Below are positions 27,745 to 36,678 of a DNA stretch of 64,000 bases, one piece after another. The notes beneath the pieces were generated by a model. The model ran no database searches, was not told the origin of the DNA, and saw only the letters and a program-made list of their open reading frames with translations. The stretch covers positions 1-64,000 of the forward strand of contig NZ_WHJH01000026.1 of the NCBI RefSeq assembly GCF_011682145.1, in the 5' to 3' direction. Made by a program: the position numbers and the translations under genes. The first letter of the stretch is position 1, and each line of letters opens with the position of its first letter. The stretch is from Massilia mucilaginosa (GTDB lineage: Bacteria; Pseudomonadota; Gammaproteobacteria; Burkholderiales; Burkholderiaceae_D).

Positions 27745-29502
<1,758 letters not shown>

Positions 29503-29620: not shown

Positions 29621-29698
29621 TATGACAACTAACTTCCGGTTAATGTGGATCAAACACTGCATCGCCATTTGCGGCTACCGAAAGGAATGCAACGCGCC

Positions 29699-31540
29699 AT
29701 GCTTACTATGAAGACAACGATAAAAGCATTCTCGACGGCTCGGCCCGCCCTCTGGGTAGGTCTGCCCTTTTCCCTGGCGGTGGGCATGGTGCTTTACCTT
29801 GCCACCGCCAATTCTATTGAAACCGACTCGCGCGCCCGCTTCGCCGGCCTGGCGCAAAATGCCCGCAACAACATCAACGCCCGCATCAAGTCGTATACCG
29901 ACGTGCTGCGCGGCACGGTCAGCGTGTTCCAGATCAGCGAGCCGCTCACGCGCCGCCAGTTCCACGGCTACGTCAACGGGCTGGGACTGGCGCGCAATTT
30001 TCCTGCCATCGAAAGCATCAATTTCGCCCAGATGCTGCAGGACGCCGACCGCGAAGCCTTCCTGCAGCGCGTGCGCAAGGAACGCGCGGCCGACGGCGCC
30101 GAGGCGGAGGAGTTTTCCATCAAGCCGCCCGGGCGCCGCCCTTCCTACACGGTGGTCACCTTCGCGGAGCCGGAAGAACGCTGGGCCGCCACGCTCGGCT
30201 ACGACCTGTTGACCAATCCGCTGATCGTCGGCACTCTGGGCGAGCTGCGCGACACCGGCAAGCTGTTCACCTCGGGCTTGCCGATTTCCTTCATTTCGGG
30301 ACCGAACCGTACCGGGCTCGGCATGCGCCTGCCGGTCTACCGGCCGCATGCGCCGACCGCGACCGTGGCGCAGCGGCGCGCCGCCTATCTGGGTACGGTC
30401 GGGATCGCCTTCAGCGTGCACAAGCTGGTGCAGGGCGTGATCGACGAAGTGCCGATCAAGAATGTGCGCATGATGCTGATCGATAACGCCATGGGGCCGG
30501 ACAAGTTGAGCGGGCGCGTGTTGTTCGACAGCGGCGGCGACGCCTCGCCCCTGCCCTCCCTGCTGGCGCCCAAGCACTTCAATGCGACCCTGCCGATCGA
30601 CTTCAACGGGCGCCAGTGGGACGCCACCTTCACCGTCTCCGCCAACGAGCTGTACACGGGCTTCGAGGAATTCGCGCCATGGCTGGCGATGATGGCCGGC
30701 TCGGTCAGCTCGATGCTGCTGTACGCCCTGTTCCATGCGCTGACCTCGTCGCGCCGGCGCGCCATCAAGATGGCCAAGGGCATGACGCGCGAACTGCGCG
30801 ACAGCCAGGCCAAATTGCAACTGTCGCACCAGAACCTGCGCCGCCTGGCGGCCCACGCCGACCAGATCAAGGAAGGCGAGCGCAAGCGCATCGCGCGCGA
30901 AATCCACGACGACCTCGGACAAAACCTGCTGGCGCTGCGGATCGAAGCGGACATGCTCAGTTCGCGCACGCGCGAGCGCCATCCGCGCCTGCACGCGCGC
31001 GCCCGTTCCACCCTGCAGCAGATCGATGCCACCATCAAGAGCGTGCGCCAGATCATCAACGACCTGCGTCCGAACGTGCTCGACCTGGGCCTGTCGGCGG
31101 CGGTCGAGTGGCAGATCGCCGAATTCAAGCGCCGCACCGGCATCGCCTGCGAACTGATCGACGAACCGAAGGAAGTGGCGCTCGGCGACCATGCGGCCAC
31201 CGCCTTCTTCCGCATCCTGCAAGAGTCGCTGAGCAACATCGTGCGCCATGCGCAAGCCACCCGGGTCAGGGTCGAACTCAAGCTGAGCGGCAACCGCCTG
31301 TCGATGACCGTCAGCGATAACGGCATCGGTTTGCAGGCGAACGAACGGGCCAAGGTCGGCTCGTTCGGCCTGGTCGGCATCGAGGAGCGCATCAGCATCC
31401 TGGGCGGCTCGTTTTCCATCGCCAGCGATGCCGGAGAAGGGACGACGGTCTGCGTGAGCGTCCCTTTGCACAATGAACCGGCGCGTGGCCACGCCACCGG
31501 CGCACCCAGCAAAACCGAATCGCATGCCGCGTTTGTCTGA
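29699..31540 (+). CDS. CHASE-domain sensor histidine kinase (NarL partner type)
   Basis: A membrane sensor of about 613 residues. The start is ambiguous between GTG 29645 and ATG 29687/29699/29708; AAGGA at 29682-29686 favours 29699. Membrane helix 1 is LWVGLPFSLAVGMVLYLATA. The periplasmic CHASE domain runs about 40-320 (YVNGLGLARNFPAIESINFA), and helix 2 is LAMMAGSVSSMLLYALFHAL. The HisKA_3 box EGERKRIAREIHDDLGQNL carries the phosphoacceptor His. The HATPase domain has NIVRHAQ, DNGIGL and GSFGLVGIEERI. No response regulator gene is adjacent, so it is an orphan kinase here. CHASE ligands are typically small extracellular molecules. Confidence 0.92.
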   Translation: MLTMKTTIKAFSTARPALWVGLPFSLAVGMVLYLATANSIETDSRARFAGLAQNARNNINARIKSYTDVLRGTVSVFQISEPLTRRQFHGYVNGLGLARNFPAIESINFAQMLQDADREAFLQRVRKERAADGAEAEEFSIKPPGRRPSYTVVTFAEPEERWAATLGYDLLTNPLIVGTLGELRDTGKLFTSGLPISFISGPNRTGLGMRLPVYRPHAPTATVAQRRAAYLGTVGIAFSVHKLVQGVIDEVPIKNVRMMLIDNAMGPDKLSGRVLFDSGGDASPLPSLLAPKHFNATLPIDFNGRQWDATFTVSANELYTGFEEFAPWLAMMAGSVSSMLLYALFHALTSSRRRAIKMAKGMTRELRDSQAKLQLSHQNLRRLAAHADQIKEGERKRIAREIHDDLGQNLLALRIEADMLSSRTRERHPRLHARARSTLQQIDATIKSVRQIINDLRPNVLDLGLSAAVEWQIAEFKRRTGIACELIDEPKEVALGDHAATAFFRILQESLSNIVRHAQATRVRVELKLSGNRLSMTVSDNGIGLQANERAKVGSFGLVGIEERISILGGSFSIASDAGEGTTVCVSVPLHNEPARGHATGAPSKTESHAAFV

Positions 31541-31829: not shown

Positions 31830-33029
31830 ATGATGAGCAACGACGCAATCAAAGCAATTTCAGAACTCGATCTGGACCCGATCAAATTCAAGCTCACGCA
31901 TGCCGAATCCGGCGAAGGCTGGTCGCAGGAAAAGGCCGATGCGGTGGAAGTGGAATATCGCCGTTTCCTGTATCTGATGAAGGCCTTCCCTGAAGACGAA
32001 ACCGCGCCGATGATTGAAGTCGACATCTTCTGGCACTACCATATTCTCGACACGATGAAATACGCGAAAGATTGCGAGCACGCGTTCGGCTACTTCCTGC
32101 ACCACTATCCGTATGTCGGCATGAGCGGCGAAGAAGAAGATACGCAGCACCTGCAGGACTGCGGCAACCGCATGCGCGACCTGTATGAAAGCACCTTCGG
32201 CGAAGTGTACGGCGCCCGCGCCGCCGCCTGGTGCACCCGCACCGTGGAAGCGGCAGCGCCGCTGGAAGCTGCCGGCGCGCAATCGGCCTGGTGCACACGC
32301 ACCGCCACCGAAGGTGAAACGGCGGTATCGGCCGGCGCCAAAGCCGCATGGTGCACCCGGACCAACGCCGAAGCAGCCAAAGCCGCCTGGTGCACGCGTA
32401 CCACGACCGACAGCGCCAAATCGGCCTGGTGCACCCGCACCACGACCGACAGCGCCAAAGCCGCATGGTGCACCCGCACTGTGACGCCAGAGGCAAAAGC
32501 CGCCTGGTGCACCCGCACCACCACCGACAGCGCCAAATCAGCATGGTGCACGCGCACTGTGACGCCGGAGGCAAAAGCCGCCTGGTGCACCCGCACCACC
32601 ACCGACAGCGCCAAATCAGCATGGTGCACGCGCACTGTGACGCCGGAGGCAAAAGCCGCATGGTGCACCCGCACCACGACCGACAGCGCCAAATCCGCCT
32701 GGTGCACGCGCACTGTGACGCCAGAGGCAAAAGCCGCATGGTGCACCCGCACCACCACCGACAGCGCCAAATCCGCCTGGTGCACGCGCACTGTGACGCC
32801 AGAGGCAAAAGCAGCATGGTGCACGCGCACCGTGACGCCAGAAGCCAAAGCGGCCTGGTGCACACGCACCAGCACGGAGGCGGTGAAATCGGCGTGGTGC
32901 ACCAGGGCCATGCCTGCGGCTGTGCAATCAGCCTGGTGCACGAGGGTCGCGAGCGAGCCAACGATCGTCACGGCAGCCACGTCGGAGCTGCTGCTAGCGA
33001 TCAGCAAGGGCGTCGCGCAGCCGGCTTGA
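31830..33029 (+). CDS. GRDP-like domain protein with 18 Ala-Trp-Cys-Thr-Arg repeats (possible multicore RiPP precursor)
   Basis: A 399-residue protein. Residues 1-130 resemble the glycine-rich-domain-protein-like (GRDP/DUF1399) fold: IEVDIFWHYHILDTMKYAKD, then a Cys-Glu-His turn and YFLHHYPYVGM. The rest is 18 copies of AWCTR, with Trp134 first and Trp369 last. The first two intervals are 20 residues; the next 15 are exactly 13. Spacers alternate between TTTDSAKS and TVTPEAKA. Only two other Cys occur. There is no signal peptide or membrane helix. A folded N-domain plus identical Cys-containing cores is the layout of a multicore modified-peptide precursor, but no modifying enzyme is adjacent. 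Metal binding by the Cys array is an alternative. The start at 31830 has AAGAGG upstream. Confidence 0.85.
   Translation: MMSNDAIKAISELDLDPIKFKLTHAESGEGWSQEKADAVEVEYRRFLYLMKAFPEDETAPMIEVDIFWHYHILDTMKYAKDCEHAFGYFLHHYPYVGMSGEEEDTQHLQDCGNRMRDLYESTFGEVYGARAAAWCTRTVEAAAPLEAAGAQSAWCTRTATEGETAVSAGAKAAWCTRTNAEAAKAAWCTRTTTDSAKSAWCTRTTTDSAKAAWCTRTVTPEAKAAWCTRTTTDSAKSAWCTRTVTPEAKAAWCTRTTTDSAKSAWCTRTVTPEAKAAWCTRTTTDSAKSAWCTRTVTPEAKAAWCTRTTTDSAKSAWCTRTVTPEAKAAWCTRTVTPEAKAAWCTRTSTEAVKSAWCTRAMPAAVQSAWCTRVASEPTIVTAATSELLLAISKGVAQPA
32226..32946 (+). repeat. In-frame 39-bp tandem repeats (78-bp higher-order unit) encoding AWCTR cores
   Basis: Eighteen GCNTGGTGCAC cores lie in one reading frame, sixteen of them at an exact 39-bp pitch from about 32346 on. 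From about 32385 to 32860 two unit types alternate, so the effective repeat is 78 bp with very few differences, a sign of recent duplication. It is wholly coding, so it is not a CRISPR array. Copy number is likely to vary among strains. Confidence 0.95.
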
Positions 33030-33189
33030 ACACGTCAGGCCACGCGCAATACTGGAATGAGTAAGGCACTGCCGCACGCACAGTGTGCGCCACGCCATGG
33101 TCCGGCAGGCATGGCGGCTGCCAGTTCCGCACACGGGCTCTAAATCGGAAAACGAAAGCCGACGCGCTGCACAGCGGATCGGCAATCCC

Positions 33190-33225: not shown

Positions 33226-33492
33226 TCAGGCGTTGAGGCTGATGCTCACCGCCGGCACGCCCATCATCGCGCGCAATTCCCGGATACTGAAATCGCTGAT
33301 CTCGTGCATGCGCAGCAGGATGGTTGCGCCGATCGGCAAGGTGCGGTGGCGAATTTTACTGATCACAGGCGGCGCAACTTCAAGCGCGCGCGACAAAGCC
33401 GCATCGTTCTTGAGCTGCAAGCGTTCGATGATGGCATCGAGCACCTTATTGGGATCGTAAGTCGGTTCTTCTGGAAATCTGCGGTTGGTCAT
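33226..33492 (-). CDS. Small helix-turn-helix (Cro/XRE-like) protein
   Basis: An 88-residue protein. DPNKVLDAIIERLQLKNDAA and LSRALEVAPPVISKIRHRTL form a helix-turn-helix resembling phage-repressor or YdaS-type DNA-binding domains. The tail is LRMHEISDFSIRELRAMMGV. It is convergent with the AWCTR-repeat gene across the terminator at 33190 and could regulate neighbouring genes, though similar stand-alone proteins are common in this bacterial family. The ATG at 33492 is used. The AT-rich 186 bp upstream probably carry its promoter. Confidence 0.78.
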   Translation of the reverse strand: MTNRRFPEEPTYDPNKVLDAIIERLQLKNDAALSRALEVAPPVISKIRHRTLPIGATILLRMHEISDFSIRELRAMMGVPAVSISLNA

Positions 33493-36409: not shown

Positions 36410-36433
36410 TCCGGGCCACGCCCCCCCCCGGCC

Positions 36434-36538
36434 CACACCGGGGTCAGAGCTCTGACTCGAAACATTTCCTACACGCCAGCCGCGGTCCACACCGGGGTCA
36501 GAGCTCTGACTCGAAACATTTCCTACACGCCAGCCGCG
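36434..36538. repeat. Tandem pair of GGGGTCAGAGCTCTGA elements (54-bp period)
   Basis: Two 51-bp copies (36434-36484 and 36488-36538) are identical: CACACCGGGGTCAGAGCTCT, then GACTCGAAACATTTCC, then TACACGCCAGCCGCG. A degenerate third core (ACCGGGGGCTGACCTCTGAT) follows at about 36542. The cores are the same family as the perfect palindromes at 60861 and 61041. The region 36410-36751 holds no gene, only these repeats and their inverted relatives at 36679 and 36724. Confidence 0.9.
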
Positions 36539-36678
36539 CCAACCGGGGGCTGACCTCTGATTGGCAATAAATTGCTTAACCGCAGGCTCTACCCGGCCTG
36601 GTCACGGCTACAAGCCCCGTTTTTTTGACCATGCGCATCAATACCGGCACTTTACCGTCTGATCAGCAACTCATGTCT

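Follow-up and report, generated by a model that had tools for sequence, protein, structure and literature searches.

What kind of product is encoded by a gene in which a folded N-terminal domain is followed by 18 copies of the same five-residue peptide? The question is raised by a 399-aa open reading frame (31830..33029, forward strand) in the window, by which we mean the whole 64,000-nt stretch of the Massilia mucilaginosa contig NZ_WHJH01000026.1 analysed here. Residues 1-128 (31830..32213, forward strand) make up a GRDP-like helical domain with the invariant elements FWHxHILDT, DC, FG and HHxP. The AWCTR array extends on the same strand from residue 133, where the first core starts, to residue 372, where the last one ends (32226..32945), and the C-terminal tail past the last core (32946..33026, forward strand) is without the RPx[L/I/F/V] motif of the Ser arrays described below. 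A first-pass annotation of the sequence had counted 18 AWCTR cores, sixteen of them at a 13-residue pitch, with two alternating spacers. Both observations were confirmed: the core spacings are 20, 20 and then 15 times 13 aa, which puts 16 cores in exact register, and the spacers TTTDSAKS and VTPEAKA alternate among the middle copies. The near identity of the repeats at the nucleotide level is likewise evident from a 39/78-nt tandem array at 32335-32871 (best Tandem Repeats Finder score 751), and the evolving copy number claimed along with it is seen among relatives, which across the family carry from 1 to 24 cores per protein. Open frames of 300 aa (32105-33007, reverse strand) and 238 aa (32348-33064, forward strand) also cross the array and are probably a by-product of its repeat composition. 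A Pfam match to Albumin_I_a, although above its cut-off, spans 24 residues within the repeats and was judged spurious. NCBIfam returned no match for the window protein at E-values up to 10, TIGR04222 included, PADLOC and PHROGs returned none for the array protein, and no obvious secretion signal was seen in it by eye.

The assignment of the N-terminal domain, also made in the first-pass annotation, holds up. The Pfam family PF07173 (GRDP-like) matches residues 42-81 with 23.7 bits (cut-off 22.7), a marginal pass, and the predicted structure points in the same direction. AlphaFold2, run on an alignment of 54 sequences, predicts a domain of six helices with high confidence (mean pLDDT 91.9, pTM 0.87); its fold resembles giant-virus proteins in the Foldseek BFVD set, the best match being a GRDP-like protein of Harvfovirus (E 1.9e-5, TM 0.70). 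Searches of the PDB yielded no solved structure with an E-value below 1 by fold (Foldseek) and a single match (E 0.92) by sequence. A six-frame search of 398 genomes with PF07173 at E 1e-6 found nothing and, as its 14 controls came back empty too, is uninformative. The domain is a strongly conserved region of about 125 residues, and H69, H71, D74, D81, C82, H91 and H92 are invariant in all 14 of 14 diverse rows. Compared with the GRDP-like/DUF1399 proteins of plants and giant viruses (PF07173), the window protein shares the N-domain fold and the WH/HH motifs but has no Gly-rich domain; the place of the glycine-rich tail is taken by the AWCTR array.

The domain is present in 22 of 40 relatives and in all 17 genomes of the window's genus (its own genome counted). 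Among 294 genomes of the family, 121 contain it at E 1e-4, and 112 still do at E 1.6e-17 or better. Our main sample of 99 loci comes from 98 of the 112 genomes; of the other 14, six are partial, on short contigs or more distant, and eight are near relatives of included loci. A second sample of 79 loci, drawn from the best 80 of 249 matches, consists mostly of Massilia, Telluria, Janthinobacterium, Duganella, Pseudoduganella and Rugamonas, together with one Herbaspirillum record and several MAGs. The two samples overlap, and synteny and relatedness are common among their loci; once identical tails had been collapsed, 183 distinct tails remained. The multicore layout read from the window, a conserved N-domain with tandem cores, is that of the family at large: at least one core is found at 99 of 99 and 79 of 79 loci, at least three at 94 of 99 and 76 of 79, and only one or two at 5 of the 99. 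Relatives from plasmid and phage searches were all under 60% identity. Several records are worth mentioning in their own right. A MAG contig labelled Streptosporangiaceae (L216) carries two Massilia-type GRDP arrays and is probably mis-binned. In another family of the order (L297, G430) a contig ends directly after AWS behind a GRDP-like N-domain, and this AWS may be an array's first core. At L087, L107, L039 and L223 there are copies of the array gene that are decayed, frameshifted or partial, some next to intact copies; some of them are possibly assembly errors.

Across the family, the tandem cores follow the consensus [A/S]-[Y/F/W/H]-[C/S]-small-x-x and are uniform inside an array, while their sequence is species-specific. 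AWCTR, AWCAK, AFCGIVKPP, AYCMIRP, AYSGRV, AYSGVP, AWSARAP, AHSGVV, AYCSSPGKP, AWCAAPGKQ and AWCMGTTR are among the variants, the small-aromatic-[C/S] part being constant. The first-pass annotation had expected an invariant Trp and a Trp-Cys core conserved in homologues. Invariance of Trp is contradicted by the N-domain tree, on which the aromatic residue changes at least 40 times, and the literal Trp-Cys form fails, but its general form, small-aromatic-[C/S], is present at all 99 loci. The strict pattern A[YFWH][CS] detects no core in three tails, two of which have SYC/GYC cores and one of which is a fragment. The pattern [AS][YFWH][CS] occurs 6.10 times per 100 aa in the 183 distinct tails versus 0.13 times in neighbouring ORFs, the background being the called ORFs in seven neighbour clusters (219,818 aa in all), a part of them possibly in the wrong frame.

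To see which part of the unit is under selection, we compared replacement and silent changes within arrays, using 137 arrays with 1022 units (those of the 183 tails with fewer than four matching units were dropped) and counting repeats rather than independent events. The ratio of replacement to silent changes is 7/332 at Ala, 30/153 at the aromatic position, where 25 of the 30 replacements are Y-F swaps, and 3/206 at C/S; the corresponding replacement rates are 0.7% at Ala and 0.3% at C/S. In the same 137 arrays the positions preceding the core give 279/187 (-3), 285/164 (-2) and 182/254 (-1), and those following the motif 29/238 (+1), 42/266 (+2), 19/321 (+3), 99/237 (+4) and 189/195 (+5). 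Because units were picked by their non-motif positions, picking does not bias the counts at Ala, the aromatic and C/S, whereas those at -3 to -1 and +1 to +5, which were used in picking, lean towards identity. A core in which nearly all changes are silent, set against a freely changing spacer, identifies the cores as the selected part, as had been proposed from the window alone. In other words, each core is under strong purifying selection and the spacers are only loosely constrained.

Arrays also divide by the residue that follows the aromatic. Among 171 labelled arrays (tails with fewer than three cores or a short N-side were left out of this labelling and of the N-domain tree), 92 have Ser and 79 have Cys at this position. 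The C/S state changes 4 times on the N-domain tree. In 167 array consensus types the aromatic is Y in 88, F in 39, W in 34 and H in 6, and the next residue is S in 91 and C in 76. A C-to-S change was seen once in 1022 units, so that C and S are hardly ever mixed inside one array. The division extends to both ends of the protein. Of 93 Ser arrays all 93 have RPx[LIFV] C-terminal to their last core, compared with 11 of 80 Cys arrays, and N-domain residue 93 follows the C/S type, being Phe in 92 of 92 Ser arrays, an association that comes down to only 2-4 independent pairs. Three single-core relatives (L228, L299 and L300) likewise end in RPKL or RPSF.

The constant neighbour of the array family is a sensor histidine kinase with CHASE, HisKA_3 and HATPase_c domains, located in the window at 29645..31540 (forward strand). 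Small called ORFs disregarded, it adjoins the array gene at 98 of 99 loci, in 88 cases with both genes on one strand, for the most part in the glnS context, and in 10 divergently and in a different gene context; CHASE was recognised by Pfam in the window kinase and one divergent kinase, the remaining kinases being assigned by similarity clustering. At the lone exception (L142) the neighbour of the array gene is a GGDEF-EAL protein that matches Cache weakly. Arrays on plasmids of Variovorax and Cupriavidus pinatubonensis (AWCSL and AYCAR cores) have a CHASE-GGDEF-EAL protein directly upstream, and the Cupriavidus P-10 array has the same layout, its upstream homologue being 80% identical to the CHASE-GGDEF-EAL protein. 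With a kinase or a GGDEF-EAL protein beside the arrays and CHASE in both, the input domain is common and the output differs. CHASE-type matches are frequent, occurring at E 1e-15 in 184 of 288 genomes and often more than once in each; nonetheless, chance would hardly account for adjacency at 98 of 99 loci, even though the independent arrangements are few, about four. The sensor does not need the array, since a kinase homologue (61-65% identity) is retained in all four array-less genomes examined, which belong to one genus. Nor was co-variation of the cores with CHASE in particular seen. In a mirror test on 83 loci corrected for GlnRS (97 loci had one kinase and an N-domain, and 83 of them GlnRS), the partial rank correlation of core similarity was 0.33 for CHASE, no better than the 0.32 for the kinase domain. 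Core similarity tracks the N-domain best (partial 0.56), and this may be simple linkage.

Other genes around the array look like syntenic flanks. Glutaminyl-tRNA synthetase (27745..29502, forward strand) has a clustered homologue at 85 of 99 loci and is not thought to be part of the system. A convergent gene for a conserved small protein of 88 aa (33226..33492, reverse strand), with no Pfam or NCBIfam match, is found at 74 of 99 loci. The MFS transporter gene 4.4 kb downstream, present at 66 of 99 loci, sits inside a housekeeping-like syntenic block. Beyond the ferredoxin reductase gene, at 36433-36560 of the window, lies a direct repeat of 54 nt (2.4 copies, 92% match) that includes GGTCAGAGCTCTGAC.

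Does the array come with a modifying enzyme? The first-pass annotation had reported none adjacent, and indeed Pfam finds no known one among the 13 flanking ORFs of the window: the matches are GlnRS, DnaJ, the CHASE kinase, an epimerase-like protein, ferredoxin reductase, an acyltransferase, the MFS transporter and a sub-cut-off DUF6178, and the remaining five ORFs match nothing. Across the 99 array loci the CHASE sensor and the syntenic flanks are the only genes that recur; no recurring modifying enzyme was found, and no dedicated protease was seen near the array gene. The enzyme neighbourhoods envisaged earlier do not recur at the arrays, but some distant GRDP-like proteins do lie in enzyme operons, as described below. 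Three enzyme classes, MNIO, SPASM radical SAM and YcaO, were compared across genomes, and none tracked the arrays. MNIO (PF05114) occurs in 19 of 22 array genomes versus 9 of 14 array-less genomes. The three array genomes in which it is absent at E 1e-6 are G278, G142 and G175, and one MNIO-less array genome is a single contig with 24 AWC cores. The conserved long MNIO has its own small Cys precursor adjoining it at the four loci read, and by our reading the small Cys protein that precedes it would be bufferin-like. In genomes whose coordinates were compared, some 60-80 kb separate it from the array gene, a distance that looks like general synteny. With 3 of 22 array genomes lacking it and a precursor of its own at four loci, MNIO was rejected as the obligatory enzyme. 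A SPASM radical SAM protein is found in 4 of 13 array genomes, and YcaO is near-universal with and without arrays (16 of 16 versus 16 of 18), so that it neither tracks them nor is excluded; SPASM and YcaO were both set aside as array enzymes. The genome of the window also encodes a 556-aa MNIO-domain protein beside a small Cys-containing precursor-like protein, a pair seen in relatives as well (L271, L288; G000 C416).

Bufferin and adjamnio MNIO precursors, as presented in the parts of PMC12452194 consulted, resemble the arrays in having Cys motifs, and some are long and repetitive; however, the array genes have no adjacent MNIO, MNIO is missing from the three array genomes, and half of the arrays carry Ser. 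Massilia sp. CF038 (L197 here) is named in those parts for a different family. Identity of adjamnio-1 (PMC12452194, same parts) with the array protein was set aside as unlikely: a CF038 MNIO adjoins an 87-aa Cys ORF (L290) instead.

By following relatives we came across the GRDP-like domain outside the arrays, and the occurrences given here are examples, not a survey. In two operons it precedes a short Cys tail. A 155-aa GRDP-like protein with the tail NPCKSTDCR, from a genome of the order Burkholderiales (L296:1-6965), is followed by a methyltransferase, TauD, a 258-aa ORF without assignment and a large ABC-type ATPase. On an Azospirillum ramasamyi plasmid (L340:5956-12348) the GRDP-like tail is GCKSQNCP, and the next genes encode a methyltransferase, TauD, an ATPase with a UvrA DNA-binding match and an annotated methyltransferase; the two operons agree in the order of their first three genes but not in that of the last two. 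These CKSxxC-tail operons look like an undescribed biosynthetic cluster. Another GRDP-like protein, ending in CWHDCEDRCWHACK, overlaps a TauD ORF (L310). On a Stanieria cyanosphaera plasmid (L339:5977-7500) the GRDP-like ORF has no tail; next comes an annotated ORF of 43 aa, which contains two cores (AAFCFL and GFCFL) and an RPS motif, and after it a methyltransferase. Short forms in further members of the class have no Cys tail, as is the case in Halomonas, Pseudomonas savastanoi and Maritalea, where the GRDP-like gene overlaps or abuts a hydrophobic ORF of 442-443 aa (one weak MatE match, two without a match). Further GRDP-like relatives have wholly different neighbours. On a Halomonas plasmid (L338:3993-7712) genes for a LuxR regulator and for an acyl-homoserine-lactone synthase lie close to the GRDP-like gene, and the overlapping gene that follows it has a weak MatE match. 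IMG/VR contigs L255, L256 and L257 encode GRDP-like proteins with ECNPPACCGDGGC-type tails, the next gene being similar in L255 and L256.

Of six long GRDP-like hits compared with NCBIfam, four, all from one genus (L232, L233, L236 and L237), have a GRDP-like segment with the motifs WHxHL..FC..LHHEP ahead of TIGR04222 and a Gly/Ser/Cys tail, while the other two have no NCBIfam match; a Gloeothece protein annotated by NCBI as TIGR04222 was also matched by a GRDP-like query. The window protein has the GRDP-like segment in common with these four, but it carries an aromatic-Cys/Ser array rather than a Gly/Cys tail and matches no NCBIfam model. Some TIGR04222 (near_uncomplex) membrane proteins have been proposed as MNIO substrates in the parts of PMC12452194 consulted, and GRDP or DUF1399 has no occurrence in its main text. 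The GRDP-like segment may bear on the recognition of these proposed substrates.

How, then, is the array to be understood? The architecture, the selection on the cores, the linkage to the sensor and the enzyme operons of some relatives are established from genome sequences, and the design of the family suggests a so far undescribed system that produces or displays peptides. The reading we prefer, tentatively and at somewhat less than even odds, is that of a precursor-like carrier of multiple peptide cores, in which a conserved GRDP-like domain and selected cores stand beside a CHASE sensor. The GRDP-like domain would act as a leader-like recognition or carrier module and present the cores, the functional output, to enzymes; the cores would probably be modified by enzymes acting in trans, and short aromatic-Cys/Ser peptides would then be released. 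The CHASE sensor could be the signalling partner that either reads the product or controls its production. A carrier domain followed by release is the simplest scheme to accommodate arrays, single tails and the split arrangement alike, and its strongest outside support comes from the same domain ahead of short Cys tails in enzyme operons and from the separate ORFs for domain and two-core peptide in Stanieria. Against it stand the lack of a recurring enzyme at the 99 loci, the mirror test, in which no sensor-specific co-variation was seen, and the relatives without a Cys tail. It is tempting to go further and suppose that a new and widespread class of ribosomal peptides is carried or matured by the GRDP-like fold, with aromatic-Cys/Ser or CxxC-type cores borne as one tail, as a separate peptide or as an array of up to 24 copies. 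The CHASE sensor would then read the released array peptides as species-specific signals, its output being a histidine kinase in some lineages and GGDEF-EAL in others. In this full form we think the proposal is unlikely to hold.

Known systems provide partial parallels to a precursor-like carrier. Multicore RiPP precursors combine a conserved N-terminal module with tandem short cores, variable spacers and an evolving copy number. The array family shares all four traits, selection on its cores included, but is without a recurring modifying enzyme, and its N-domain is an unusually conserved 125-residue fold. On sequence grounds the array protein would be a variant within the multicore-precursor kind, not a proven RiPP. 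In yeast, alpha-factor is made from a multi-copy peptide pheromone precursor and has a cognate receptor. Such precursors and the arrays both consist of tandem short species-specific peptides, and the array gene adjoins a sensor; on the other hand, the arrays have no identified secretion or cleavage signal and no special co-variation with CHASE. Literature searches on the motif, the domain names and RiPP combinations gave no account of the arrays among the matches listed. The first-pass interpretation is supported in part: layout and selection stand, Cys metal binding as the general function and Trp invariance do not.

The main alternative, which we nevertheless find somewhat unlikely, is an unmodified docking array. 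The cores would be short linear motifs, copy number would set the valency of the scaffold, and a partner, perhaps in the CHASE sensor pathway, would co-vary with the core. Such an array would work without a modifying enzyme and beside a constant signalling neighbour; its aromatic would be a hot spot tolerating Y/F/W/H exchange, in keeping with the many changes on the tree, and its tail would be disordered, as predicted for the part modelled (pLDDT below 50 at residues 135-172, the first cores, in a 172-residue model). However, +1 to +3 are near-fixed within each array and diverse across species, whereas a conserved pocket would be expected to be stricter; relatives that lie in enzyme operons and have a single short Cys tail are not scaffolds, and C/S mixing is almost nil. 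A very unlikely option is a low-complexity tail of aromatic stickers and spacers that drives condensation of the folded domain. FG or [G/S]Y[G/S] repeats are the natural comparison. Regularly spaced aromatics in a tail predicted to be disordered where modelled, as well as Gly/Ser/Cys-rich C-termini on other GRDP-like proteins, would suit it, but a sticker needs neither the preceding Ala nor the following Cys/Ser, which are replaced at rates of 0.7% and 0.3%, and one or two cores are all that 5 of the 99 loci have. An array of cysteines for metal binding, as suggested in the first-pass annotation, or for redox buffering is more improbable still. The window protein does have 18 core Cys residues, and the Cys type accounts for 79 of the labelled arrays, but Ser occupies that position in the other 92, which rejects metal binding as the general explanation, and the core has no second conserved ligand. 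Finally, functionless repeats, produced by slippage-driven tandem expansion on a functional domain, would agree with near-identical DNA repeats and differing copy number but are scarcely credible given core positions that, across 137 arrays, are rich in silent changes and have hardly any replacements.

For the biology of these bacteria, a gene at a largely conserved place in 98 genomes is one whose product is treated by selection as repeated short peptides. If the cores are modified or released, they would constitute a new peptide class discovered via its carrier domain, and the GRDP-like/DUF1399 domain would gain a biochemical role. The linkage to CHASE makes the peptide-signal hypothesis open to direct genetic testing.
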